From assembly GCF_009668025.1 (NCBI RefSeq), contig NZ_WJXZ01000014.1, positions 392,448 to 456,447 of the forward strand: a stretch of 64,000 nucleotides of DNA, written 5' to 3'. This document shows, one piece after another, positions 12,755 through 25,161 of the stretch. Position numbers and translations under genes: made by a program. The notes beneath the pieces are model-generated. The model saw only the letters and a list, made by a program, of their open reading frames with translations. It ran no database searches and was not told where the DNA came from. The DNA is from Larkinella terrae (GTDB lineage: Bacteria; Bacteroidota; Bacteroidia; Cytophagales; Spirosomataceae). Position 1 is the stretch's first letter; every line of letters begins with the position of its first letter.

Positions 12755-13924
12755 ATGAAATTTTCGCTAAGGATTGGCGTACTGGTTTCTTCGTTTTTTT
12801 CGTCGCTGCTCTGGTCGCTTAATTTATTGTTGTTTCTGTATACGCTGCTGGTTTATTACCTGCTCTATCAAGTTCCGATCGGTCACTGGATGGCTGGCGT
12901 TCTGATGATCTCGTTGCCGGTTGCGTGGGCTTTCAACCTGTTTTTTATCGTATTCTGGTTGTTGGTGCGGCCCTGGCGGGCGTTGCTTCCGGTATTGACA
13001 ATGCTCATCGGAATTCCGTTCTGGCGACGCACGCTCGCGTATAGCCAGCCAGGTAACAACAGCGAGAAACGCCCGACGCTGCAGGTCATGAGCTATAACG
13101 TGATGGGTTTCAACAAATACGACCTTGTAGATACCCAGCGCCCGGACGAAGCGAACAACATGATTGACTGGGTGTTGAAAGAACCGTCGGATGTGAAATG
13201 CTTTCAGGAATTTTACAATGACAACAGCTCGGTTGTTTTTAAAACGATTCGGCGTCTGGAGAAAGCCGGTTATCCCTACTACGCCATCCTGCACCCGCCG
13301 GAACGGGAAGGGCCGGGCAAATTCTTCGGCGTAGCGGTTTTTTCGCGCTACCCGATCGTCAAACGGGGCGACGAGGTTTTCGACAATTTCAACGGCCTGG
13401 TTTGGGCCGATATCAAAACCGGTCCCGATACGATCCGGGTGATCAGCATCCATTTGCAGTCGATGGGCATCCGGGTGGGCGGTATGCTGAACGAGAAGGA
13501 GTCGAGCCGCGTCAGAAAAAATACGCAGGGCGTGTTGCGCCAGCTTCGGCAGGGAATGACCCTGCGCCGAAATCAGATTGTCCGGGTGGAGGAATATTAC
13601 CGAAATAGCCCGCACCCGGTCATTATCTGCGGAGATTTCAACGATACGCCCTACAGTTATACCTACGGTAAATTGCGCCGGATTCTGCGGAACGCCTTTG
13701 AAGACGCGGGCCGGGGCTTTGGGTTCAGCTACAACAAAGCCCCCGGTTTTCTCCGGATCGACAATCAGTTCTACAACGCCCGGTTTCTGGAACCGCTCAA
13801 CTACACGACCTACCGGGACGCCAAGTTCTCCGACCACTATCCCATCATGGCCCAATACGCCATCAAACCGCGCGAAATCAGCAAAGACCGCACGCCCAGA
13901 ACGCATGTCGAGTTTGATTTTTGA
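12755..13924 (+). CDS. Membrane-anchored endonuclease/exonuclease/phosphatase family protein
   Basis: 389 residues. The first 90 hold three hydrophobic helices (about 5-30, 33-65 and 70-93), and the rest is an EEP domain of the DNase I/sphingomyelinase type. Visible catalytic motifs: MSYNVMGFN, the metal-binding Glu in KCFQEF, RVISIHLQS, the ICGDFNDTPYS Asp/Asn pair and the terminal SDHYPIMAQ His. The topology predicts the catalytic domain on one face of the membrane after the third helix, probably outside the cytoplasm. Members of this architecture are common in Bacteroidota; the substrate is unknown. It is divergent from rimP and followed by a perfect heptamer hairpin. Confidence 0.88.
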   Translation: MKFSLRIGVLVSSFFSSLLWSLNLLLFLYTLLVYYLLYQVPIGHWMAGVLMISLPVAWAFNLFFIVFWLLVRPWRALLPVLTMLIGIPFWRRTLAYSQPGNNSEKRPTLQVMSYNVMGFNKYDLVDTQRPDEANNMIDWVLKEPSDVKCFQEFYNDNSSVVFKTIRRLEKAGYPYYAILHPPEREGPGKFFGVAVFSRYPIVKRGDEVFDNFNGLVWADIKTGPDTIRVISIHLQSMGIRVGGMLNEKESSRVRKNTQGVLRQLRQGMTLRRNQIVRVEEYYRNSPHPVIICGDFNDTPYSYTYGKLRRILRNAFEDAGRGFGFSYNKAPGFLRIDNQFYNARFLEPLNYTTYRDAKFSDHYPIMAQYAIKPREISKDRTPRTHVEFDF

Positions 13925-14020: not shown

Positions 14021-14431
14021 CTACGGATGCGCATCGACCCAGACCTGGCCATCCTCAAAAATCTCTTTTTTCCAGATCGGCACCTGTTGTTTGAGCGTGT
14101 CGATGATGTAGCGGCAGGCGTCGAAGGCGTCGGCGCGGTGGGGAGTAGCCACGGCAATCAAAACCGCCATGTCGCCAATTGTTAGATTGCCTTTCCGGTG
14201 AATGATCGCGTAGTTCCGGATATCCCAGCGCTGGCAGGCTTCGTCGGCAATTTCCTGCATTTTCGCGACCGCCATCCGGTCGTAGGCTTCGTATTCCAGC
14301 CGTTCGACGGGGCGGTTTTGGGTATTGTCGCGAACCGTACCGAAAAAAAACGTAATGGCCCCGGCCGCCCCCGTCGAAACGTGTTGATAAGCGGCATTCA
14401 TATCAATCGGCTCAGTCGTAATCGCAACCAT
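14021..14431 (-). CDS. moaE: Molybdopterin synthase catalytic subunit MoaE
   Basis: Large subunit of molybdopterin synthase, which inserts the dithiolene sulphurs into precursor Z (cPMP) using MoaD thiocarboxylate. 136 residues from ATG 14431 (MVAITTEPID). Motifs: GAITFFFGTVRD, LEYEAYDRMA, HRKGNLTIGDMAVLIAVATPHRADAFDACRYIIDTLKQQVPIWKKEIFEDGQVWV, including the Lys-rich active-site stretch PIWKKE. The frame is open upstream to 14488, but the extra 19 residues are only translation of the heptamer hairpin. It lies downstream of moaD with that hairpin between them. No other molybdenum cofactor genes are in the window. Confidence 0.95.
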   Translation of the reverse strand: MVAITTEPIDMNAAYQHVSTGAAGAITFFFGTVRDNTQNRPVERLEYEAYDRMAVAKMQEIADEACQRWDIRNYAIIHRKGNLTIGDMAVLIAVATPHRADAFDACRYIIDTLKQQVPIWKKEIFEDGQVWVDAHP

Positions 14432-14436
14432 AAAGG

Positions 14437-14513
14437 AATGATGGGTTATGAATGATGAACGATGGATGATGCTGACGCTGTAATTCATCGTTCATCATTC
14501 ATAACCCATCATT
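14437..14513. repeat. Heptamer-built inverted repeat, perfect 28-bp arms
   Basis: Arms 14437-14464 and 14486-14513 are exact reverse complements over 28 bases. The words are ATGATGG, GTTATGA, ATGATGA, ACGATGG, so the sequence differs from the hairpin 500 bases away while the design is the same. It lies between moaD and moaE, which are expected to be co-expressed, so it must be read through or the two genes are uncoupled. Confidence 0.92.
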
Positions 14514-14521
14514 CTAAGATG

Positions 14522-14770
14522 TTATCCTCCGCTGACGGGCGGGATCAGGGCAATTTCGTCGTTGGGATGCAGGGATTGATCGGCTTCGGCGTATTCGCCG
14601 TTGACGGCAATCAGCAGCGAACGGAGGCCGTTGAGGGCGGGATACTGCGTTTTCAGATTCGTCAATAAATCGCCTACCTGACCGGTTTGCGGCAGATCGA
14701 GCGTCAGGACCGACGAGCCGACAATCTCGCGCGTGATGCCAAAAAGCTGTACAGAAACTCGGTTACTCAT
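14522..14770 (-). CDS. moaD: Molybdopterin synthase sulphur-carrier subunit MoaD
   Basis: An 82-residue ubiquitin-like sulphur carrier that ends in the required Gly-Gly (IPPVSGG), which becomes the thiocarboxylate that MoaE uses. Other family signs: VQLFGITREIVGSS near the start and LLIAVNGEYA...LHPNDEIALIPPV at the end. The start ATG 14770 follows the stop of the upstream FHA gene by 2 bases (TGAGGATG), so translation is probably coupled to the FHA/kinase run. That physical link to a cell-envelope signalling operon may simply be transcriptional read-through. Confidence 0.94.
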   Translation of the reverse strand: MSNRVSVQLFGITREIVGSSVLTLDLPQTGQVGDLLTNLKTQYPALNGLRSLLIAVNGEYAEADQSLHPNDEIALIPPVSGG

Positions 14771-14772
14771 CC

Positions 14773-15672
14773 TCAAAGATACGAAAACAATAAAACAACT
14801 TCACCGCCCAGCTCAATTTGATCGCCATCGCGGAGCGGGTAACCCATCCCGGCAATATCGGCCCGCTCGACGGAATTGTCGGGGTGCATGATTTTCGTTT
14901 TATTGCCGCTGGCGGGTAGCCCGCCCGGATCGACCAGCAGGGAATACTGGTTGTTCGCAGCATCGTACCGGATCGTGGCGTGTGCCCGGCTGACCGCCCC
15001 GTTGCCCGCGCCTTTGTTCGGGTCAAAACCGGCATCGTCGTCGTTCAGAATGACGATGTCGTTGGTTCGCACCCGGCCCGAGGTGGTTTGGGTCGTATGC
15101 CCGCGACCGATGTAAAACGCAGTTTTTTCGGTTGAGTTGAGGGTATACTCGGCGTGCTCCGTCTGGCCGACCAGCGCCACGATTCGCGCCAGCAGCGGTA
15201 CCGCGTCCGGTTTCGTTTTATCCCGGATGATCAGCGCCAGATTTCCTTCCCGGTACGTGCCGGACGGTAATTCGTCCGCAGAAAGCGCGTACTCAAATCG
15301 CCAGTTTTTGGGCAAAACGATGTAATTGTCAGCCAACTGGCGGTTTAATTCCTGCTGGAATTTCCCCGGCTGATTGGCCCACAAAACGACCCGGTAAAGT
15401 TCTTCTTCTTCCGGTGTCGGGCAAGAAACCAGGAGCTTCAGGCCGATGGGAGCGGTTTCCGGTTCGTTCTGGTAAGCCCGCAGCTTATTAATGACAAATC
15501 GCAGGAGCTGCTCCCGTCGCCGGGCGGCCGGTGGTGGACCGGACGGAGCAGGTTTTGGTGCGACCGAAACCGGTTCCGTCCGTTTGATTTCCTCGGACGA
15601 AGGCTTTACCGTGGCCGACTGCCCCGCCGGTGTAAACCCGAATAGTTCTTTGACCTTTTCCAGAAAACTCAT
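14773..15672 (-). CDS. FHA-domain protein (FhaB-like position)
   Basis: 299 residues, no signal peptide. The N-terminal 50 residues are Pro/Ser/Thr-rich, a middle domain (about 50-165) is not recognised, and the C-terminal FHA domain (about 170-299) has the phosphothreonine-binding residues Gly189-Arg190, Ser228-Arg-Ala-His231 and Asn257-x-Thr259. FHA domains bind phosphothreonine peptides, so this is a plausible reader for the two kinases encoded upstream in the same run. The gene lies 19 bases after the SEDS-PBP fusion gene and touches moaD. Binding partners are inferred, not shown. Confidence 0.86.
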   Translation of the reverse strand: MSFLEKVKELFGFTPAGQSATVKPSSEEIKRTEPVSVAPKPAPSGPPPAARRREQLLRFVINKLRAYQNEPETAPIGLKLLVSCPTPEEEELYRVVLWANQPGKFQQELNRQLADNYIVLPKNWRFEYALSADELPSGTYREGNLALIIRDKTKPDAVPLLARIVALVGQTEHAEYTLNSTEKTAFYIGRGHTTQTTSGRVRTNDIVILNDDDAGFDPNKGAGNGAVSRAHATIRYDAANNQYSLLVDPGGLPASGNKTKIMHPDNSVERADIAGMGYPLRDGDQIELGGEVVLLFSYL

Positions 15673-15691
15673 AAAGTGACGGTTTTGCGGG

Positions 15692-18600
15692 TTAAAAACT
15701 ACCCAGATATCGTTGCTGTTTTAAAATTGGCGCCACGACGGTATTGGCCAGATTGACGGCATCCGCCGAGGATTCGCCCAACTCGATGCGTACCGTTACG
15801 ACGGTATTCGACCGACCATCGGGCGTAGGGGCGAAAAAGACGTACCAGCCGTCGTTCTGCTGAACTCCTTGCACAATCCGTTCGGGCGTACCGGTTTTTC
15901 CGGCCACCCGTGCAAGGCTGATTTTACTTCGTCCCGGCGGATTCGATTGCTCGATCATGAATTCCTTCAACTGTTCTGCGTAATCCGGATTGCGGGCCAG
16001 CGGTTTTCCCGCCCCGACCGGACGCGGTTTTCCCGCCTGCGAAACGACGTAGCGCGACGGCTGCAGAACGCCCTTGTTGGCAATCGTTCCCGCCATTCGG
16101 GCCAGGGCCGCAGGGGTTGTCGTCAGTTGTCCCTGCCCCCAGGCCAGCCCCGAAAACTCGCTGCGGTACCGTCTCGGATACTGCATACTTTGGTAGAGTT
16201 TCCGGCGAACCACAAACGACGAATCCTGCCAGTGTTTCCGAATTTGCCGGTCTTCCAGATCAGTATGGGTATCCGAAAACGAATAACCGCCAATGTAATC
16301 GACGTTCATGCCCGTGGCCAGATAAAGGTCCGCCAGTTGCTTGTCCAACGCCTGATCGTTCGCCAGCCGGATAAAGTACACGTTGCTCGACCGGACAATG
16401 GCCTTTCGCATATCGACCGACTCCCCGCAGGGTTCCGACTCCCGCGCTCCCCGGCGGATGATTTCCTGACACGAAATGGGGTACCGAACCGCCGATGCCG
16501 ACGAACCCAGTTTGTTAAAAGCCGCCATGGCCGTCAGAATTTTCGCCGTCGAACCGGGCGCCGTCGGGAAGGTCATGCCCAAATCCCGCTCGGTCACCAG
16601 ATAAGGCAGTTGCAGCCGGTCCCGGTCCGACAACAGCATACCTTCCGGCGATTTTAAATTGGGCAACGGATGCATCGCCGACGCCAGAACGTCGCCCGAA
16701 GCCGCATCCAGCACGACCACCGAAAGCCGCTTGTCCTTGTATTGGGATTGCGCCAGCGATTGCTGCAAAGCCACCTGCAACCCGGCGTCTACACTCAGCG
16801 ACAGATCGCGGTTTTTGGCTTTTCGCTCGGCGACTTCGTGGCTGTCGACGCCCGCCCGGAGTGCTGTTGCCAGCTCCCGGTAATCATAAACAGTCAGCAT
16901 GCGGGTTTGCTGAACCGTGGGGCTAAACCGGTCGGCGCGGAAGTTGGTGGCAACGAGCTCGGTTTTGCGGGGGCGGCTGTTAAAACCGCGTAACTCGCTG
17001 AAATGAGTCGCTTCGGCGTAATACCCGTTGCTTTGTCCCCAGAAAAGCTGCGTGTTCAGATCGCCCGTCCAGAAAAACAGGTGTTCGCCGAAGGGGTAGT
17101 AGCGTTGCAGGCGCTTTTGGGTGATGGTTTTCACCTGATCGGGCACCAGACCGCTTTGTTTCAGTCGGGGCAATTGCTGGGTAACCCGCTCCGGCGAACT
17201 GGTGGCCAGCACCAGACCTTTCCGGTCGTAAATCGTCCCCGACGCCAGCACCCGCGTCAGCCGCTCGATCCGGGGGTTGTAGCTGTAAATGGGGTCGCCG
17301 TTGCGGGTGATGACGCGGGCAGGCCGGACGATGTAGTCGTTGCCGCGCCAGCCCACAATCGGGAGTAAGCGAGCAATCAAAACCGCTATTCCGATCAGAA
17401 AACCGGCAATTCCGGCCATCAGCACGCCGTCGTAGTTTTTTTCGAGGTATTCGCGCTGCTCGACCTGTCCCGGTCGGTGCGCAACGCTAAACACGACGCC
17501 CATCGCCATCAGGTTGATAATGAGCGCAATTTTGCCGTAACTCAGAAACGGGACGCTAATCCCCGTCAGGGGCAGCAAACCGATGGAACCGCTGGCAATG
17601 ATCAGAAATTGAATGCCTGTCGAAATGGCAATACCAGCCACCAGAAAAAAGCTGAACGGCTGACCCGCCCGGCGGGCGTGCAGAAACGTTCGGTGGAGGA
17701 GCAAGCCCATGAGCAGAAAAACTACCACGACTCCCAAACCGCCCAGTTCTTCGCCAACGCTGGGCAGAATCATGTCGGTATGGGCGGCTGGCATGGCATT
17801 CGCAAATCCTTTTCCCAGACCCTGCCCCGTCCAGCCGCCCGACGCCAGTGTCCAGAAACTATGCGCCAGGTGATCACCGCCGTACACATCGTTGTTCCAG
17901 GGGCTTAGCCAGATGGCTTTGCGGTCGGCGAGCCGACTCCCGACAAAAGGCAGCTGATCGCCAAACGCAAACATCGCCATCACAACCAGCAGTAAAACCG
18001 GTGCTTCCGTCAACAGAGCTGCCCATCCGAGCGCGGTTCGGGAACGGGCCTCTCCCCGCCAGTACATGTAGCCGATCAGCACCACAAAACTGAGCAGCGT
18101 TGCGATCCAGCCGGGCAGCAGCCACAGGGCGATTCCGTAACCGAGCCCGGTAGCCAGCGTCAGGGGCAGGTTGCCGCGCGCGATGCTGTAGAACAACAAA
18201 AAAGTAAAACAGACGACCAGCGCCGGGCCCATATCGCCCAGCAAAAGGTAGAGAAGCATGAGCAATCCCGCCCCGGCCAGCGCCCCGAAACTCACCGCAA
18301 ACCGCCACCGCAAATCCGGTAACTGGCGAATCTGTTGCTCGTTGGCGGCAAAAAAACCGGCAAAGAAAATCAGCAGCAGGTATTTGGTGATTTCACTCGG
18401 CTGGAATGTCACGCCCAAAAATGACAGGTTGACGCGAACTCCGCTGCCTTCCGGCCCCGACCCAATGAACAACGTCAGTGTCGCCAGACCGAGGGCAAGT
18501 ACCAGCCACGTCCAGCCTGTTAAGCGAACCGAGGACCGGTTGTAGAAGGCAAACAGCAGGTCAAACCGCCAGTTGGCGTAAAAGCGGCCGATGTTGAGTT

Positions 18601-19675
18601 GGGATATAATCAGCAAACCGAACAGCCCGGCCGCCACGCCCTGCAGCGTTTGCCAGGCATAAAGCGTGTCCTGCAACGGGTCCTGAATGGCTAACAGCGT
18701 TAAGACGGAAATACCGGTTAGCAGCATCAGAATCGGCAGCAGGAGCGGATCGGAATAAAACCGCCGGATGGCCCAGATGCCCTGCACGGCCCAGAACGTT
18801 CCGAGAAACAGCAAAACGATGGCCCAGAATTGCACCGTAAAAGCTGTGGGCGTGCGAACGGTGAAGGCGTGATCGCCTTTGAGCTGGCCGTAAACGACGG
18901 AGCCAATGAGCCGGATCTGGTGCGGGCGAGCCGAAAAGGTAAATGATTGATTGCCAGTTAATCGACTCGTTCCCCGGCGGCTGCCAAACTCAAAACCGGG
19001 TTTCAGTGCGACCACACTATAGCCTACATCCGGAGGCAAACCCGAAAAGGAAAACCGTCCGTCGGGATCGGTGCGGGCGTAGGAAAACCGGTCGGGCAGC
19101 GTGTCCGGCTGAGCGGTGGCGGGGTGGCGTTTGAGCTGCACCAGCACACTCGCCATCGGTAGATTCGTCTCCGCAACGACCACCCGCCCGGCAATCGTGC
19201 CCGTTCCGTCGCCCACACTAACGGTGGCCGGATACGGTTTGGGATTGGTAAGTTCGCGGACGTACAGAACAGAGTCGAAGCCCATTTGCTGGCGGGAAAT
19301 TCGCAGGCGGTTTTGAAAATCGATGCCTCCAATGCGGCTGCGCCAGGCCGTCGGAGCGTGAATGGAAAACTGCCGCTTGTTGATGGCGCCGAGATTATCC
19401 GGCGAACCGGTCTCGCCCAATTTGGCGGCTAACGAATCGGCCACCAGTGTCCGGTCGGCCGGATCGCTATAATAATTACCGCTGTTGAGTAAACGCTGGA
19501 TGGGCGCCGATTTCAAACCGGGCTGCAGGGTGACGGCCTGCCCGTTGACAAGGGCTTGTTTCGCCAGGTTCAGGTCGGAGGAAAGGTTGATATACAGACG
19601 GATAAACAGCAAAAGCAGCATCGCCGATGCTCCCAGTAAATACAAACGACCGGACGATACCGAAGGAACTTTCAT
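15692..19675 (-). CDS. SEDS (RodA/FtsW) glycosyltransferase fused to class B penicillin-binding transpeptidase
   Basis: 1327 residues joining the two enzymes that polymerise and crosslink peptidoglycan. Order: an N-terminal anchor helix (11-30), an extracytoplasmic region with a carboxypeptidase-regulatory-like beta domain (about 155-230, GTIAGRVVVAETNLPM...), the SEDS multi-helix core (about 280-735) with FQPSEITKYLLLI (424-436) and the loop AHTDMILPSVGEELG whose Asp634 aligns with the catalytic RodA Asp, then a linker helix (about 750-772) and a class B PBP: STAK with nucleophile Ser1042, SSN 1096-1098 and KTGT 1260-1263. Normally these are two proteins (RodA+PBP2 or FtsW+FtsI). It is flanked by kinases and FHA genes, so phospho-control of cell-wall growth is inferred. 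Confidence 0.93.
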   Translation of the reverse strand: MKVPSVSSGRLYLLGASAMLLLLFIRLYINLSSDLNLAKQALVNGQAVTLQPGLKSAPIQRLLNSGNYYSDPADRTLVADSLAAKLGETGSPDNLGAINKRQFSIHAPTAWRSRIGGIDFQNRLRISRQQMGFDSVLYVRELTNPKPYPATVSVGDGTGTIAGRVVVAETNLPMASVLVQLKRHPATAQPDTLPDRFSYARTDPDGRFSFSGLPPDVGYSVVALKPGFEFGSRRGTSRLTGNQSFTFSARPHQIRLIGSVVYGQLKGDHAFTVRTPTAFTVQFWAIVLLFLGTFWAVQGIWAIRRFYSDPLLLPILMLLTGISVLTLLAIQDPLQDTLYAWQTLQGVAAGLFGLLIISQLNIGRFYANWRFDLLFAFYNRSSVRLTGWTWLVLALGLATLTLFIGSGPEGSGVRVNLSFLGVTFQPSEITKYLLLIFFAGFFAANEQQIRQLPDLRWRFAVSFGALAGAGLLMLLYLLLGDMGPALVVCFTFLLFYSIARGNLPLTLATGLGYGIALWLLPGWIATLLSFVVLIGYMYWRGEARSRTALGWAALLTEAPVLLLVVMAMFAFGDQLPFVGSRLADRKAIWLSPWNNDVYGGDHLAHSFWTLASGGWTGQGLGKGFANAMPAAHTDMILPSVGEELGGLGVVVVFLLMGLLLHRTFLHARRAGQPFSFFLVAGIAISTGIQFLIIASGSIGLLPLTGISVPFLSYGKIALIINLMAMGVVFSVAHRPGQVEQREYLEKNYDGVLMAGIAGFLIGIAVLIARLLPIVGWRGNDYIVRPARVITRNGDPIYSYNPRIERLTRVLASGTIYDRKGLVLATSSPERVTQQLPRLKQSGLVPDQVKTITQKRLQRYYPFGEHLFFWTGDLNTQLFWGQSNGYYAEATHFSELRGFNSRPRKTELVATNFRADRFSPTVQQTRMLTVYDYRELATALRAGVDSHEVAERKAKNRDLSLSVDAGLQVALQQSLAQSQYKDKRLSVVVLDAASGDVLASAMHPLPNLKSPEGMLLSDRDRLQLPYLVTERDLGMTFPTAPGSTAKILTAMAAFNKLGSSASAVRYPISCQEIIRRGARESEPCGESVDMRKAIVRSSNVYFIRLANDQALDKQLADLYLATGMNVDYIGGYSFSDTHTDLEDRQIRKHWQDSSFVVRRKLYQSMQYPRRYRSEFSGLAWGQGQLTTTPAALARMAGTIANKGVLQPSRYVVSQAGKPRPVGAGKPLARNPDYAEQLKEFMIEQSNPPGRSKISLARVAGKTGTPERIVQGVQQNDGWYVFFAPTPDGRSNTVVTVRIELGESSADAVNLANTVVAPILKQQRYLGSF

Positions 19676-19691
19676 GCAAATGAATTAAGAT

Positions 19692-20990
19692 TTAATTACC
19701 CGTCTTCGTTGAATCCGGGGCGGTTTTCAAGGAATCCGGTGGGGCAATCGGCACCGTCGGAGGGCTGGTTTCGGTATTGGGTGCGGGACTGCTGTACAGT
19801 TGGGTTGAGTCAATGGTGCTTTCAACGGGTTCTTCCGACGATGACGAGGTGGCAGTGTCTTCCTGCATGGGTTCCGTTTGCGACGAGTCGGCCACTACTG
19901 ACACCGAGTCCGGCGCGACCGTTGTATCGGCACCGGTTTTCTTGCCTTCGTACAGATAAAAAGCCGCCAAACCGATCAGGAAAACGACCATAACCACAAT
20001 ACCGATTTGCCATCCGGTGAAGCTGCGGGCGGGCTCTTCCTCCGGTTCGATGGTTTCGGGCAATTCCGGTACGGGCAGCGGTTTGGGAGCGGCCATCGTG
20101 CGCGACACGACCGGCGGTCGCAACCCGGTGGGTCGACGGTGTTGCAACTGCTCCACATTCGCCTGACCGAACAGCAAAACCAGTTCGTTGACGTCGCTCA
20201 GCCGCTCGGCCGGATTTTTGGCGAGCGTCCAGTCCAGAACGGTACTCAGGCTGGGTGGCAGAAACTGATCGGCGGGCAGAAAAACCGGCGGGTGGGGCGT
20301 CTGCAAAACCTCCCGCATGAACGTGGCAATACCGGTAGTGTCGGCCATCGAAAACGGTACCCGCCCCGACAGACACTCGTACAGAACGACGCCCAGCGAA
20401 TAATAATCCGTCGCCACATCTACACCCCGGGGATTTTCAAACTGCTCGGGCGAAGCATATTCGTAGGTCATCAGCGATTGCCCCGTTAGGGTTTGCGATT
20501 GTTCGCGCAGCCGGGCTACACCGAAATCGGTCAGCAGAAAATGCAGTTCGCCACTGGGTAACGACCGAAAAAGAATGTTCTCCGGCTTAATGTCGCGGTG
20601 AATAATGCCGCGCGGATGAATGGCCTGAAACGCTTCGGCCATTTGCAGGCCCAGCCGGATGACCGTCGGAATTTCCAGATGCCCTTTTTCCGTCAGCAGC
20701 GCCCGCAGATTGCCGCCCTCGATCCATTCCATAACGATGAACGGCATGGGCATATCGAGCTGAACCTCCCGGACGCTCACCACGTTCGGGTGCCGGATGT
20801 CGGTCATCAACTCGGATTCGAGCCGAAACCGCCGGAGCGTTTCGGCGTCGGTGTTGAGGGCGAAGTGTTTGATGGCCACCAGATTGCCCGTGGCCAGATG
20901 GCGGGCCTTCAGCACGCGGGCGTTGCTGCGACCCAGTTCGCCGATTATTTCGTACCCCGGAAAATGCGTATTGACGCTTACGGTTGGCAT
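19692..20990 (-). CDS. Transmembrane serine/threonine protein kinase 1
   Basis: 432 residues. Cytoplasmic Hanks-type kinase domain (about 12-275): ATP-anchoring Lys41 in VAIKHF, catalytic loop HRDIKPEN with Asp133 and Asn138, DFG at 155-157, and ASPEQF as the APE-like motif at 179-183. The glycine-rich loop is atypical (GELGRSNARV), with the middle glycines replaced by Ser/Asn. A Pro-rich juxtamembrane stretch is followed by one helix (about 327-347) and an 85-residue extracytoplasmic tail rich in Ser, Thr, Pro and Glu, with no PASTA repeats. It is 4 bases after its paralogue and 16 bases before the SEDS-PBP fusion gene. The fusion and FHA proteins are likely targets by context. Confidence 0.93.
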   Translation of the reverse strand: MPTVSVNTHFPGYEIIGELGRSNARVLKARHLATGNLVAIKHFALNTDAETLRRFRLESELMTDIRHPNVVSVREVQLDMPMPFIVMEWIEGGNLRALLTEKGHLEIPTVIRLGLQMAEAFQAIHPRGIIHRDIKPENILFRSLPSGELHFLLTDFGVARLREQSQTLTGQSLMTYEYASPEQFENPRGVDVATDYYSLGVVLYECLSGRVPFSMADTTGIATFMREVLQTPHPPVFLPADQFLPPSLSTVLDWTLAKNPAERLSDVNELVLLFGQANVEQLQHRRPTGLRPPVVSRTMAAPKPLPVPELPETIEPEEEPARSFTGWQIGIVVMVVFLIGLAAFYLYEGKKTGADTTVAPDSVSVVADSSQTEPMQEDTATSSSSEEPVESTIDSTQLYSSPAPNTETSPPTVPIAPPDSLKTAPDSTKTGN

Positions 20991-20994
20991 GAGT

Positions 20995-22581
20995 TCATTC
21001 GTTGTTTATCGAGTCGATCGCGGCCGGAACAACGCGCATCAGCGAGTCCAGATTTTTCGGAAAGTCATACTTCAGGATTTTGCAACTCATCCGGGTTCCC
21101 CGGTCGCTGTCCGGCGCCGATCGAACGGGCGAGGAGTGGGGCGGTACGTTCATAAAGAACATCTTTTCGGTTTTATAAAGTCCACCCTGATCTTTGAAAT
21201 AACTGACCTGAACGGACACGGCCGGAAACGGAAACGGGCTGGGGTTCTCCAGTTGAATCCGGGCCTGTTTGATCCCGCCGAAGAAACCTACTTTAAGACT
21301 GAGTACTTCCACGCTCAGGGTCCTTCCCGCAGCGGCTAACTGTTCCTGCAACTGCTCACGCCGTTTGGCTTGTTTTGCCAGATAAAGATTCATGGTATCT
21401 TCCTCAGCGACAGTGGTTTCGTCGCCGTCCGTCTGCTGGGCTGGAGCGAGTGCGGCCGTGGTATCGTTGAGGGGCAATACGCTGGCAATGGGTTTCGGTA
21501 TCGAACCGGTATTGGCATAATAAAGACCAGCACCAGCCGCCAGCACGACCAGTATGAGAACGGGCAGTAACCACGGTTTTCGGGACGAATGGGTTGGAGC
21601 CGGACTGGCTGGTTCCGGTTTTACCGGACCTGGTTCGGGCCGAACGGCTTCGGGTAGTTCGGGTTTCGGTTTGGTCTTATTCGGTTCACTACCAATGGCG
21701 GGCGGTGCGGTTTTCGAACCGGTCCGGTTCGTTCGGAGGTAATTCAGTTCCGACTGTTTCAGTAACCACGTCAGCTCGTCCGGATCACTCAGGCGTTCGC
21801 TGGCTTTCTTTTTCAATAAGCCTTCCAGCAGTTCCGTAAATAAACCCAACGTTGGGTTTTCGCTGGTTACGGTCAGGGCAGGGGGCGGTTCCGTCAGCAC
21901 TTTGTTCATAAACGTCACAATCCCCGACTGATCGTCCAGCGCAAACGGCACGCTTCCGTGCAGACATTCGTACAAAACCACGCCCAGTGAATAGTAATCC
22001 GTAGCCGGGCCGACGCCCCTGGGCTCGTTAAACTGCTCAGGCGAGGCATATTCGTAGGTCATCAGCGATTGCCCCGTCAGCGTATTGGACTGTTCGTGCA
22101 ATCGGGCAATGCCGAAATCGGTCAGCAGAAAATGCAATTCGCCACTGGGCAGGGGGCGGTACAGAATATTCTCCGGTTTTACGTCCCGGTGCACGATTCC
22201 CTGCGGGTGAATGGCCTTGAACGCACTCGCCATTTGCAAGCCTAGCCGGATCGTAGTCGAAATGTCGATGCGGTTTTGACCGGCAATGAGCTGTTTCAGG
22301 CTACCGCCCTCAATCAGTTCCATGACAATGTACGGCAGCTCGGCTTCGAGTTGTACTTCCCGAACTTTCACCACGTTAGGGTGCGCAATGCTGGTCATGA
22401 TGGCCGATTCCCGCTGAAACCGCCGGAGCGTCTCCTCGTCGGTGTTGAGGGCGAAGTGTTTGATGGCCACCAGATCGCCCGTGGCCAGGTGACGGGCCTT
22501 CAGAATACGGGCGTTGCTGCGCCCGAGTTCACTCAGCACTTCGTAGCCCGGAAACCGTGTATCAAACCGTATGGTGGACAT
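20995..22581 (-). CDS. Transmembrane serine/threonine protein kinase 2
   Basis: 528 residues. The kinase domain aligns with kinase 1 without gaps for about 230 residues (Lys41, HRDVKPEN with Asp133, DFG 155-157, the same atypical GRSNARI loop), so the two arose by tandem duplication. After a Pro/Glu-rich linker and a helix (about 336-355) it has a larger extracytoplasmic part: a helical segment (about 395-420) and an Ig-like beta domain (about 423-505) resembling FxLYD-type folds. The tails, not the kinase domains, have diverged, which suggests different sensed signals. The start codon overlaps the PP2C stop (TAATG), so translation is coupled. Confidence 0.93.
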   Translation of the reverse strand: MSTIRFDTRFPGYEVLSELGRSNARILKARHLATGDLVAIKHFALNTDEETLRRFQRESAIMTSIAHPNVVKVREVQLEAELPYIVMELIEGGSLKQLIAGQNRIDISTTIRLGLQMASAFKAIHPQGIVHRDVKPENILYRPLPSGELHFLLTDFGIARLHEQSNTLTGQSLMTYEYASPEQFNEPRGVGPATDYYSLGVVLYECLHGSVPFALDDQSGIVTFMNKVLTEPPPALTVTSENPTLGLFTELLEGLLKKKASERLSDPDELTWLLKQSELNYLRTNRTGSKTAPPAIGSEPNKTKPKPELPEAVRPEPGPVKPEPASPAPTHSSRKPWLLPVLILVVLAAGAGLYYANTGSIPKPIASVLPLNDTTAALAPAQQTDGDETTVAEEDTMNLYLAKQAKRREQLQEQLAAAGRTLSVEVLSLKVGFFGGIKQARIQLENPSPFPFPAVSVQVSYFKDQGGLYKTEKMFFMNVPPHSSPVRSAPDSDRGTRMSCKILKYDFPKNLDSLMRVVPAAIDSINNE

Positions 22582-24008
22582 TACTGACGTTGCGTTTTGG
22601 ATGAATCAGGTGGATTCTGTAAAGTAACCATAATACCGGCACGGCGGAAGGTGTCCTGGCGGATAACCGCCTGAATGGGCAAATCCACCCCGCGAAAATA
22701 CACGTTTGAGAGTTGCAGATTTGTTCCGGGAGCAGTTTCAATACCCGTTTTAAAACCGCTGATCAGCAGATTTTCGACGCGAATCGGTCCGGTCCGGTTG
22801 ATCCGAAAGGCCAGTTTGGCCTGTGCCGTATCGGCGGGAACAAAAACCGTCAGTCGCGAATCTCCCACCAGACTGAGCAGGGAGTCGTTCAATACCAGCG
22901 GGTTTACGAGTCGGAACGTGTCGGCCGGTAACGCCAGCCGGTGATCGCTGCTTCGGTAAGCCGTTTGCAGCAACGAATCCAGCGGAGAAACCGCCAGGGA
23001 GTCGCCCGGTAACGTATCGCTGGTCACGAGTGGGGCGGTAATCTCCGAATCGCCTTCAGGCTGGTTGTTGTACCAAACCAGTCCCGCAATGCCTCCCGCC
23101 AGGAATAATCCCAGCAGAATCCAGACGCCCAAAAAACTGCGTTTAGCCGGTTTTACGGGTTCTGAAACCGCTTTTGGGCTGGCGGCCGATGCGGCAACCG
23201 GTTTCTGTACCTGCTTTTGGGCGTGGGTTGTGGCCGAAACGGAATGTCCGTTGACCGGGCTTGCGTCTTTGGCCAGCACCACCGTGATGTTATCGTTGCC
23301 GCCCGCTTCGTTGGCCAGTCGGATCAGCTCCGCGACCTGTTCATCAAGCGTCTGCGACTGGTTCAGAACCCCCAGAATTTGCGCCTGGGTGATCATATCG
23401 GTCAGGCCGTCGCTGCACAGCAGGAGGGAATCGCCCGGCCGAAAATCCGTTTCGCCCGACTCCAGAAAATCCGCATCGTCTACCCGGTGCCGAAGTGAGC
23501 CGACGTCGCGCAGAATTTCGTTCCGGCGCGGGTGTTGCATGGCTTCGGTTTCCGTGAGTTCATTCGCATCTTCCCGCGCTCCAACCATCGAGTGATCGTG
23601 GGTTAGTTTTTCTAGCACACCCTGCCGAAACCGGTAGAGTCGGGTATCGCCTACATGCACAAAAAACACTTTTTTCGAGCTGCTGTCGGCCAGCGCGGCT
23701 GTCAACACGCAGCACATTTGCCCCAGCTCACGGTTTTGTTCGCGCTGGGCGTAAATCTGGTTGTTGGCAAAAACGACGGCTTCGCGCAGCATCGACAGCG
23801 GATCACCGTTGGGCGTGGCCATGTACTGTTCAATCGATTCCTTCGCAATAGCTGCCGCCCGGTCTCCTCCGGCATACCCGCCCACACCGTCGATTACGGC
23901 CAGCAAGGCACTGGATTTCGACCAGATCATCGAGCTGATAAACGTGTCCTGGTTACTGGTTCGGCGTTGGCCTGCATCCGTCTGGCCGGCAAGTTGGAAT
24001 GAATTCAT
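22581..24008 (-). CDS. Membrane-anchored PP2C family protein phosphatase (PstP-like)
   Basis: 475 residues. The cytoplasmic PP2C domain (about 1-248) keeps the metal-binding acids: Asp21 in SNQDTF, Asp40-Gly41 in VIDGVGG, Asp200 in SDGLTD and Asp239 in GGNDNITVV. A linker, one helix (about 291-313) and an extracytoplasmic region of about 160 residues that looks like a short right-handed beta-helix follow. The layout (phosphatase, one helix, outside domain) matches mycobacterial PstP. It should reverse phosphorylation by the two kinases encoded directly downstream. It follows a 16-bp palindrome and the membrane-peptide gene. Confidence 0.92.
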   Translation of the reverse strand: MNSFQLAGQTDAGQRRTSNQDTFISSMIWSKSSALLAVIDGVGGYAGGDRAAAIAKESIEQYMATPNGDPLSMLREAVVFANNQIYAQREQNRELGQMCCVLTAALADSSSKKVFFVHVGDTRLYRFRQGVLEKLTHDHSMVGAREDANELTETEAMQHPRRNEILRDVGSLRHRVDDADFLESGETDFRPGDSLLLCSDGLTDMITQAQILGVLNQSQTLDEQVAELIRLANEAGGNDNITVVLAKDASPVNGHSVSATTHAQKQVQKPVAASAASPKAVSEPVKPAKRSFLGVWILLGLFLAGGIAGLVWYNNQPEGDSEITAPLVTSDTLPGDSLAVSPLDSLLQTAYRSSDHRLALPADTFRLVNPLVLNDSLLSLVGDSRLTVFVPADTAQAKLAFRINRTGPIRVENLLISGFKTGIETAPGTNLQLSNVYFRGVDLPIQAVIRQDTFRRAGIMVTLQNPPDSSKTQRQ

Positions 24009-24037
24009 GCAGAAAAGGAAACGTCAAAAGTTGAACA

Positions 24038-24053
24038 GTTCTGTTAACAGAAC
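24038..24053. promoter_or_regulatory. Perfect 16-bp palindrome before the phosphatase gene
   Basis: GTTCTGTTAACAGAAC lies in the 69-base gap between the small membrane-peptide gene and the PP2C gene, with another half-site GAACAG partly overlapping on its left. It could be an operator for an internal promoter or a small RNA hairpin. No regulator is identified. Confidence 0.45.
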
Positions 24054-24077
24054 CGCTGGCGGAACAAACTGTTGGCT

Positions 24078-24161
24078 TTATCGGGGTAAATCCTGAAAAT
24101 GCCGGACGACCAGAAACAGCACGAACAGCAGCAACAGCCCAACGAGTAATGCATCGATCAT
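24078..24161 (-). CDS. 27-residue single-pass membrane peptide
   Basis: A short frame starting MIDALLVGLLLL and ending in HFQDLPR: one hydrophobic helix of about 18 residues with a short charged C-terminus. The ATG lies 4 bases after the stop of the upstream FHA gene, with a purine-rich AGGAAG just before it, so translation is plausible. Such peptides are normally missed. Position inside a cell-wall synthesis and kinase operon suggests a small subunit or regulator of the membrane complex, as is known for small proteins of divisome and elongasome assemblies, but no homology could be tested. Conservation in related genomes is the deciding evidence. Confidence 0.55.
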   Translation of the reverse strand: MIDALLVGLLLLFVLFLVVRHFQDLPR

Positions 24162-24165
24162 CTTC

Positions 24166-25161
24166 CTAGGTGCGCTGAAAAGTTAAGGTTACCATACTAT
24201 TGAGCAGAATCTGGGCCTGATCCGGCAGCGGATACCACTGCGGGCTGGCGGGTTCACTCCGGGGAATGAGTTGTTCGTTCACCCGCGTTTCGTTCCGGCT
24301 GAACGACGCAATCTGAAACCGCTGGAGTTCGTCGTTGAAACGAATCCGGGCGTGAGGGTTCGAAACGTAGGCCGATTCGAGCAAAAGATAGTTCGGAAAG
24401 TGCTGGTTGTCAGGCTCTTTGCGGGCAATAACAATTTCCCGGTCGCGCATCCGGTAAGAATCTTCCCGGTTCAGTTCTGCAATGTAATGGTCGATCTGCG
24501 CCAGCCCGTCGCCCTGATTTCGGGGCAGTGCCGGGGAATTCCGGGCTGCGGGGGGCGCCACTGCCGACCGGGCGGCTGGCGGCTGCTCAAAGGTGAATTT
24601 GACAACAAAAGCCCCCGGTTCGCGAAAATCGATGTGGCGGAAGGTGTTGAGGTCTACGTCCACTTTTTCAAACCGGTTGGTCTGCTTCACCCGGCGCGTG
24701 ACATGAATGCGGTCCGGAACCTGCACCGATTCGTTGCCCGGCAAAATACCGGTCAGCGCCCCTACCACCTTGACATCCGCCGGTTCGATGGGTTCCCCAC
24801 CGAACTCCCGGCCTCCCCCAAACTTGAAAAACCAGCTGGAAGCCACCGGTGCGATGTTTTCAAACTGCGCTTTCTTCGACTCGACATGGGCTTTAAACGC
24901 ATTGACGGCTTCATTGACAATCACCGGAAACGCATTCTGGCGGGCTTCGTAGGTTTCGGGATGAAGAATAATCAGAAAATGAGCGTTGAAAAGCATACTT
25001 TTTCCCACCGATTCCCGCACCAGCGAATCCTCGAAAGAGGCAATGAGCTCGTTCAGAATGCGGGTGTTGGTAACGGGAGCGATCGGATTATCTTTGGTTT
25101 CACTGGCTGGAACCAGTAGATTTCCTAATTTACTAAGCCAGCCGCTGGACTGATCTGCCAT
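24166..25161 (-). CDS. FHA-like domain protein (FhaA-like position)
   Basis: 331 residues, no membrane helix. An N-terminal alpha/beta domain (about 30-190), a Pro/Ala-rich linker (about 192-215), then a C-terminal FHA-like domain (about 238-331) with Arg247, Ser267 and His270 (VSNPHARI), Asn290 and Asn295. The usual Gly-Arg start of the FHA motif reads IARKEP, so phosphothreonine binding may be weakened. The order N-terminal domain, linker, C-terminal FHA is the same as in actinobacterial FhaA, though direct homology of the N-terminal domain is not shown. It is the first gene of the kinase/SEDS-PBP run and is divergent from the aldose epimerase gene. Confidence 0.75.
   Translation of the reverse strand: MADQSSGWLSKLGNLLVPASETKDNPIAPVTNTRILNELIASFEDSLVRESVGKSMLFNAHFLIILHPETYEARQNAFPVIVNEAVNAFKAHVESKKAQFENIAPVASSWFFKFGGGREFGGEPIEPADVKVVGALTGILPGNESVQVPDRIHVTRRVKQTNRFEKVDVDLNTFRHIDFREPGAFVVKFTFEQPPAARSAVAPPAARNSPALPRNQGDGLAQIDHYIAELNREDSYRMRDREIVIARKEPDNQHFPNYLLLESAYVSNPHARIRFNDELQRFQIASFSRNETRVNEQLIPRSEPASPQWYPLPDQAQILLNSMVTLTFQRT

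Follow-up and report, generated by a model that had tools for sequence, protein, structure and literature searches.

A predicted single-chain SEDS-transpeptidase with FHA, kinase and phosphatase neighbours in Larkinella terrae, probably an old relative of the actinobacterial fha-pstP-rodA-pbpA-pkn cluster

The Ser/Thr phosphorylation switch of wall synthesis is a long-standing question that has been studied mainly in mycobacteria, where the gene cluster concerned is bound up with growth. Passages of two papers (PMC11898655, PMC6554272) state that the mycobacterial cluster carries rodA, pbpA, pknA, pknB and a phosphatase gene, that FhaA and FhaB recognise phosphothreonine, and that FhaA acts in the elongation network; a pknB-fhaA cluster is also reported from some Firmicutes (PMC6554272), and the word "bacteroid" does not occur in the main text of that paper. 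Here, we describe a cluster of similar composition in a 64,000-nucleotide stretch of the Larkinella terrae genome (Bacteroidota, Spirosomataceae; contig NZ_WJXZ01000014.1, positions 392,448 to 456,447), hereafter the window. Seven minus-strand genes at window positions 14773-25161 encode two FHA proteins, a small membrane peptide, a PP2C-type phosphatase, two Ser/Thr kinases and a protein in which a SEDS glycosyltransferase is fused to a class B transpeptidase, that is, a class B penicillin-binding protein (PBP). The likely product of this cluster is an extra peptidoglycan synthase, dispensable to the cell and controlled by reversible phosphorylation on threonine. A literature search covering titles and the starts of abstracts, with subscription journals mostly outside its reach, returned no description of such a Bacteroidota cluster or of a natural SEDS-transpeptidase fusion; the words FHA, bacteroid and fused are also absent from the portion of PMC10693644 that was searched.

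The actinobacterial fhaA-fhaB-pstP-rodA-pbpA-pknA-pknB cluster was examined in Nonomuraea (L086) and, from annotation, in Actinomyces (L092) and Tsukamurella (L089), whose phosphatase is missing from an incomplete annotation table and was found by profile. It resembles the Larkinella cluster in having two FHA proteins, one of them of FhaA_N type (by way of intermediates), a PP2C, a SEDS protein that shares a clade with its Larkinella counterpart, a class B transpeptidase and two kinases. On the other hand, SEDS and transpeptidase are fused in Bacteroidota, with an added N-terminal immunoglobulin-like domain, whereas the actinobacterial rodA and pbpA are separate; the Bacteroidota kinases are of other descent, lack PASTA repeats and lie in or outside the interval from PP2C to synthase; there is a small membrane peptide; FhaB lacks a membrane helix and lies at the opposite end; and the fusion is not the sole RodA-PBP2-like pair of its genome. 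A trio in the clostridial Monoglobus pectinilyticus (L112:3864-6849, plus strand) is also comparable, in that an FHA gene adjoins SEDS and transpeptidase genes and the SEDS protein falls in the fusion clade; it differs in being unfused, in having one FHA gene and in showing neither kinase nor PP2C over the 10.5 kb that are annotated. RodA-PBP2 and FtsW-FtsI are SEDS-class B pairs with the same two enzyme activities that are predicted for the fusion, but they are encoded by separate genes, belong to other SEDS clades and are present in this genome too. RodA-PBP2 and FtsW-FtsI genes are not known to have FHA, kinase or phosphatase neighbours. The features of the cluster are as follows.

24166-25161, minus strand: fhaA-like gene, 331 amino acids, with an N-terminal alpha/beta domain (FhaA_N-like) and a C-terminal FHA domain (Pfam, residues 259-304)
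24078-24161, minus strand: open reading frame (ORF) of the small membrane peptide, 27 amino acids, single helix
22581-24008, minus strand: PP2C-type Ser/Thr phosphatase, 475 amino acids, one predicted helix (293-311) and a further C-terminal part
20995-22581, minus strand: Ser/Thr kinase B, 528 amino acids, one predicted membrane helix, no PASTA
19692-20990, minus strand: Ser/Thr kinase A, 432 amino acids, one predicted membrane helix, no PASTA
15692-19675, minus strand: SEDS glycosyltransferase-class B transpeptidase fusion, 1327 amino acids, one frame
18977-19198, minus strand: CarboxypepD_reg-like domain of the fusion (residues 160-233), in its N-terminal, presumably periplasmic part
17477-18523, minus strand: SEDS domain of the fusion (Pfam match, residues 385-733), with the presumed catalytic Asp634
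15722-16723, minus strand: transpeptidase domain of the fusion (residues 985-1318), with Ser1042, Lys1045, SSN 1096-1098 and KTG 1260-1262
14773-15672, minus strand: fhaB-like gene, 299 amino acids, with its own N-terminal alpha/beta domain and an FHA domain (residues 197-289)

The ORFs and the Pfam and family scans confirmed these seven genes in the order and at the coordinates given by the original prediction, which was made from the letters and their ORFs. Its description of the genes as mostly a few bases apart holds for the last five large genes, with gaps of -1 to 19 bases; fhaA and PP2C are 157 bases apart, and the small ORF lies in that gap. A promoter and terminator scan of the cluster found no more sites than in shuffled sequences.

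The two Pfam matches of the fusion, SEDS (140.5 bits for the protein) and Transpeptidase (82.6 bits), lie in the same 1327-residue frame, so that the predicted joining of SEDS and PBP is borne out. The SEDS part scores above the cut-off of profile PF01098 and carries an HTD motif with Asp634, which we take to be the catalytic aspartate of SEDS; the transpeptidase part has the SxxK (STAK with Ser1042), SxN (SSN) and KTG motifs of a class B PBP, and no class A glycosyltransferase family is listed for the protein in the Pfam scan. Asp634, Ser1042, Lys1045, Ser1096, Asn1098, Lys1260 and Gly1262 are invariant in 22/22 aligned fusions, down to 40% identity, and Thr1261 of KTG is replaced by Ser in one of the 22. 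The remaining active-site residues that had been claimed, kinase Asp133 and the PP2C metal acids, were likewise found in the window proteins. Simple hydropathy analysis gives one helix near the N-terminus, a long helix-free stretch, the SEDS helices and a helix at 750-768 ahead of the transpeptidase. The C-terminus of SEDS proteins and the N-terminus of class B PBPs are both cytoplasmic, which makes such a fusion topologically easy. In the N-terminal part, the CarboxypepD_reg-like match reaches 31.6 bits, slightly below the cut-off of 32.3. This extra domain is probably old, since the distant fusions L151 and L152 exceed the CarboxypepD_reg cut-off; the domain is below cut-off in L154 and L155 and unlisted in L082.

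The fusion comes on top of the canonical FtsW and RodA-PBP2 genes, because the genome has FtsW-like and RodA-PBP2-like genes at two further SEDS sites, C17 and C7, of which C7 adjoins a PBP2-like gene; the names FtsW and RodA for these sites rest on trees and on that PBP2-like neighbour. This additional status, and the finding that most sampled genomes have no detected fusion, would also suit a protein that serves as a regulator or scaffold instead of an active synthase. We consider such a role improbable, since it would not account for Asp634 and the key SxxK, SxN and KTG residues being kept in every aligned fusion. A single-chain synthase is workable in principle, because an engineered chain of RodA and PBP2 has activity in E. 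coli and largely rescues its rod shape (PMC6207328); a SEDS-class B PBP fusion functional in B. subtilis sporulation is also cited in that paper. Those engineered proteins depend on an artificial linker, whereas the Bacteroidota fusion is natural and has a single origin in the trees made. A member of the family may already have been tabulated: Slin_1280 of Spirosoma linguale appears as "FtsW/RodA/SpoVE family protein" among eight PBP genes (PMC8225782, Table 3), and from this annotation and PBP listing, not from its sequence, we infer that it is this fusion. The text of PMC8225782 covered here makes no comment on a fusion at Slin_1280, and the word kinase is absent from the main text; attempts to edit the S. 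linguale genome are reported there as unsuccessful.

The fusion protein was searched for in 39 genomes (own, genus, family and order). Full-length fusions were present in the own genome, in 7/8 others of the genus and in 3/16 of the other family genera, and in 0/14 genomes from other families of the order. In all ten fusion-bearing relatives, the six large genes retain the same order on the same strand, so the loss of order that would have spoken against a functional cluster was not seen. Because this order is kept in 10/10 while the window flank genes are found in only 4/10, the nearest loci, the association of the genes exceeds chance. Nor does the fusion split into separate genes in relatives: full-length matches in all genome searches are single frames of at least 1222 amino acids, except for a second, diverged copy in one genome (G779:C1:1098528-1102463), which has an internal TGA and is apparently broken. 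The reading frame of the fusion is also broken in L051 and L060. All 11 loci, the window and the ten relatives, have the small ORF, with 27 residues (read as 23 in L035). Among 23 forms of the 27-residue peptide, a set that holds near relatives and in which L045 and L084 are one genome, differences at codon positions 1, 2 and 3 number 2217, 839 and 3484, a protein-coding pattern.

Thirty-four named loci were gathered by means of two peptide patterns, a set that is biased to near relatives and in which eight of the ten fusion-bearing relatives recur; it includes Larkinella, Spirosoma, Fibrisoma, Fibrella, Rudanella, Arsenicibacter, Fibrivirga, Flavihumibacter and other genera. The whole gene run is contiguous in 27/34, among them L051 with its broken fusion frame. 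The other seven comprise three loci cut by a contig end upstream (L054, L060, L069), three split loci (L043, L050, L053), where fhaA-PP2C-kinase(s) lie elsewhere in two genomes and fhaA elsewhere in the third, and L059, which is taken up below. Four of the contiguous loci (L058, L061, L066, L068) have one kinase instead of two, and the small ORF was found by pattern in 25/27. In six of six fusion-less relatives searched, fhaA had no match.

Genome-wide searches, which used fusion alignments with E limits of 1e-50 and 1e-45 and in which unfused or more distant relatives are not detectable, found the fusion at the strict limit in 10/395 Bacteroidia genomes, in 24/390 genomes of the order (all from one family) and in 15/395 genomes of the phylum, five of these outside class Bacteroidia. 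It is from this patchy distribution that the cluster appears to be dispensable. A second lineage has fusions about 40% identical to that of the window and keeps fhaA-PP2C-fusion-fhaB in 6/6 loci, with a kinase gene after fhaB in 6/6 and before fhaA in 5/6; a 32-residue hydrophobic ORF lies between fhaA and PP2C in the four of these loci looked at (L078, L080, L082, L083). Eight further loci were examined, six from other classes, one (L155) from another family of the class and one (L156) from the family of the window. FHA genes flank the fusion in 7/8, including five of the six from other classes; PP2C accompanies the FHA-flanked fusion in L152, and PP2C with kinase(s) in L155 and L156. In L153, from another class of the phylum, PP2C, SEDS and transpeptidase are joined in a single 1387-residue frame (L153:7253-11413, plus strand; Pfam 36.3, 169.7 and 127.6 bits, respectively). 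That the fusion occurs together with FHA proteins, and with PP2C at most loci, supports a phosphorylation-controlled synthase, and the stable core of the cluster is FHA-(PP2C)-fusion-FHA. Two other ORFs were observed at these loci: the protein at the FhaB position of L153 (11473-12750, plus strand) has an N-terminal Swt1-like HEPN domain (78.2 bits) before its FHA domain, and a 1314-residue ORF lies downstream of the L152 cluster (14856-18797, plus strand), its start resembling Hsp70 in a motif.

The cluster can move as a set, because in Spirosoma oryzicola all six large genes, with the small ORF, sit on a 137-kb plasmid (L085:4366-14922, plus strand). One genome of the window's family (G730) has in addition a second fusion copy that resembles the other lineage. 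Together with the patchy distribution, these two observations would fit a recent transfer of the actinobacterial cluster into Spirosomataceae, with fusion afterwards. We regard such a transfer as very improbable, because the phylum-wide fusions form a single clade that branches, on a long stem, outside the actinobacterial rows, from which it follows that any transfer between phyla must lie far back in time; movement within Bacteroidota is a different question.

The relationship with the actinobacterial cluster is seen most clearly in the SEDS part. A first tree contained 12 fusions, six actinobacterial SEDS, Monoglobus, Bacteroidota FtsW (six) and RodA (six), and E. coli, Rhizobium and Firmicutes sequences, after removal of L025 (duplicate), L069 and L091 (partial). 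The fusions, the actinobacterial rows and the Monoglobus FHA-linked SEDS stood apart from all others with support of 100/99, and in the approximately unbiased (AU) test a union of the fusions with Bacteroidota FtsW gave p 0.041 and with RodA p 0.001. In a second tree, five distant fusions were added, breaking the long stem, and L117, L044, L083 and L064 were also left out (L156-L158 were not included); the clade of 14 fusions, six actinobacterial rows and Monoglobus was again recovered at 100/99, with AU p 0.0043 for FtsW and 0.0021 for RodA. Four of the six actinobacterial rows come from fha clusters; the others are L087, near which neither a kinase nor a PP2C was matched, and L116. All fusions placed in trees, including those from other classes, are one clade. 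In the alignment, the stretches DPLLLP, FFAG and PLTG are common to fusion and actinobacterial rows, and PLTG occurs in Monoglobus too.

The FhaA protein gives a second, indirect link. The window FhaA is not matched by PF12401 (FhaA_N), which had 0 matches in the own genome at E up to 10, although distant cluster FhaA proteins are matched: L151 at 27.6 bits (cut-off 25), and L158, L152 and L153 at 23.9, 20 and 17.3 bits; L155 gives no match. A profile of the distant FhaA proteins aligned with a profile of eight actinobacterial FhaA_N sequences with hhalign E 1.8e-5, against 0.13 or worse for the controls, and the N-domain of the window group aligned with those of the distant cluster FhaA proteins at E 1.3e-5. 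Because the distant proteins match both sides, the window FhaA is probably related to FhaA through intermediates, not directly. Direct alignment of the window FhaA and FhaB N-domains with the eight FhaA_N sequences was tried and rejected (E 0.022 and 0.021, best controls 0.022 and 0.032). The predicted structure of FhaA places an alpha-beta-alpha-beta-beta arrangement ahead of the FHA part (mean predicted local distance difference test score, pLDDT, 70), and that of FhaB begins with an alpha/beta domain (mean pLDDT 82). Foldseek searches with the two models returned 625 and 629 matches; the best 50 of each are named FHA domains or other chains, which we take to hold an FHA domain as well, and these matches are uninformative on the N-domains because they are to FHA domains. 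The FHA domains themselves score 22.9 bits in FhaA and 20.7 bits, at the cut-off, in FhaB, where hydropathy predicts no membrane helix and residues G189, R190, S228, H231 and N257 are kept in 31/31.

The remaining enzymes give a different picture. The first transpeptidase tree placed the fusion with PbpA in the best tree at 57/37, with PBP2 and FtsI not rejected; the second, from which L044, L083 and L064 were removed and in which L156-L158 were not included, placed it with FtsI at 75/65, with AU p 0.359 for PbpA and 0.237 for PBP2. The window PP2C carries the motifs NQD, DGVGG, GDTR, SDGLTD and GGNDN and, as predicted, a single helix; it scores 54 bits with Pfam PP2C_2 and 196 bits with NCBIfam Stp1_PP2C (below the cut-off of 230). 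The PP2Cs of 15 clusters, from both lineages and including the PP2C-synthase fusion, are one clade at 100/100 in a tree from which two duplicate own-genome rows were removed, and the closest sequence is another PP2C of the own genome, L118 (89/77, on a long branch). A separate PP2C gene in the same genome directly adjoins a kinase gene (G000:C18:79294-80797).

Pfam Pkinase matches kinase B at 151 bits and kinase A at 150.9 bits, the VAIK, HRD and DFG motifs being present in kinase B and Asp133 of HRD in both; NCBIfam PknB_PASTA gives 196.7 and 184.5 bits, below its cut-off of 450, and, in agreement with the original prediction, no PASTA family is among the Pfam listings at E up to 1. The kinase tree included kinases from 4/6 second-lineage loci and L069, and none from L155 or L156. 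It contained a Larkinella/Flavihumibacter group (11 rows) and a second-lineage group (9 rows), each one clade, which are separate in the best tree and united in 12% of bootstrap trees; the kinases of the four second-lineage loci and L069 thus form a different group from the Larkinella type. Kinases A and B fall in one group, which also contains the kinase of relatives that have a single one, so the pair is a duplication. The cluster kinases are neither PknB PASTA kinases nor special kin of PknA/PknB, and they seem to act as exchangeable partners, in that the partner differs and the association stays. Long branches and thin sampling limit the SEDS, transpeptidase, PP2C and kinase trees alike.

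On these results, it is possible to weigh the idea that Bacteroidota kinases, PP2C and FHA proteins were assembled independently beside a duplicated FtsW/RodA-PBP pair of their own, the actinobacterial likeness being convergent. The two kinase groups that are not special kin of PknA/PknB, the unplaced transpeptidase and PP2C, a gene order unlike the actinobacterial one, and the window FhaA, in which Pfam finds no FhaA_N and whose direct profile comparison (E 0.022) reaches only the level of its controls, would all be expected from such an assembly. It is nevertheless unlikely, and already disfavoured, in view of the SEDS part, which groups with the actinobacterial cluster RodA and not with Bacteroidota FtsW or RodA, of the shared DPLLLP, FFAG and PLTG stretches, and of FhaA_N in the distant cluster orthologues. 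Because the SEDS grouping withstands the AU test and the distant FhaA proteins match FhaA_N, the evidence on SEDS and FhaA favours an old relationship with the actinobacterial cluster over independent assembly. The original prediction had left the choice between these two; the tree comparison that it proposed favours the old relationship for SEDS, which falls with the actinobacterial cluster RodA, as the profile comparisons do for FhaA, and does not extend it to the transpeptidase and PP2C, which are not placed beside PbpA and PstP, or to the kinases, which form separate clades.

Taken together, these findings suggest how the cluster may work. The SEDS half of the fusion would polymerise lipid II and the transpeptidase half would cross-link the strand, in a fixed 1:1 ratio because both are in one chain. 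The membrane kinases would place phosphates on their own threonines and on those in cytoplasmic portions of the synthase complex; the two FHA proteins would dock on these phosphothreonines and assemble the complex or switch it on at the membrane, perhaps helped by the small membrane peptide; and PP2C would strip the phosphates, resetting the complex. The enzyme activities, kinase substrates, FHA targets and direction of control in this scheme are inferences from sequence.

Several observations weigh against this scheme, or against the relationship behind it. The literature search found no biochemical or genetic data on any cluster member. Most of the fusion is predicted to be in the membrane or, presumably, the periplasm, leaving few cytoplasmic residues open to kinases. 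In the second lineage, the Arg and Ser expected to hold phosphothreonine are lost from fhaA (6/29 rows), and for this reason its FHA domain may not read phosphate. No PP2C or kinase adjoins the FHA-fusion-FHA genes of L151, L157 and L158, which belong to one genus, and a second fusion copy in L154 has no FHA neighbour; because of these loci, phospho-control need not be local. In a contig of a Rudanella metagenome-assembled genome (L059:1-2180), which is cut downstream, the 2.1 kb ahead of the fusion gave no kinase match, with rearrangement or misassembly as candidate explanations, and the small peptide was not found by pattern in L058 and L061. With respect to ancestry, the fusion transpeptidases are one clade, which the second transpeptidase tree does not join to PbpA, the cluster PP2C clade is not joined to PstP, actinobacterial FtsW and several phyla are absent from the SEDS tree, and the FhaA link is one-sided, as a reverse hmmsearch with the distant-FhaA profile gave no match to the eight actinobacterial FhaA_N domains.

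It could also be argued that the kinases and PP2C lie beside the fusion by chance, for instance as components of an anti-phage system, since PADLOC kinase models (PD-T4-6, mad6 and others) match both kinase proteins. These matches cover the kinase domain alone, on which ground the defence reading was rejected; at E 1e-5 the fusion, PP2C and the two FHA proteins had no match to any PADLOC family, and across the phylum the association persists despite the change of kinase type, so that a chance or defensive origin of these neighbours is barely credible.

Beyond the cluster, a ThiS-family (moaD-like) gene and moaE lie 3' of fhaB (window 14021-14776, minus strand), the moaD start and fhaB stop overlapping by 4 bases; these neighbours are present only in the four nearest loci. 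Further on, a 360-residue ORF (12824-13906, minus strand) is antisense to an Exo_endo_phos gene (12755-13924, plus strand). In the three relatives that have both, it is 57-66% identical compared with 90-93% for the sense gene, and because it trails in this way, it is probably a shadow frame.

A broader proposal, to which we give about an even chance, is that SEDS-transpeptidase pairs linked to FHA proteins make up a third ancient class of wall synthase beside FtsW-FtsI and RodA-PBP2, common to Actinobacteria, some Clostridia and Bacteroidota. In Bacteroidota, this class would have become single-chain once, deep in the phylum, and would now be optional and phosphorylation-gated, with exchangeable kinases, an FHA-flanked synthase as the fixed core and a phosphatase that can be fused to it. 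For the likely phosphorylation-controlled synthase described here, the Bacteroidota cluster represents a distant, apparently dispensable version of the mycobacterial one, in which polymerase and cross-linker are one polypeptide and the two FHA proteins are the most constant neighbours. Comparison with the mycobacterial cluster suggests that the FHA proteins and SEDS are the core, and that the kinases and PASTA sensing are replaceable. The fusion offers a natural one-chain synthase for structural studies. In addition, Bacteroidota genes annotated just as "FtsW/RodA/SpoVE family", such as that on the Spirosoma oryzicola plasmid, can hide an extra, presumably beta-lactam-binding enzyme.

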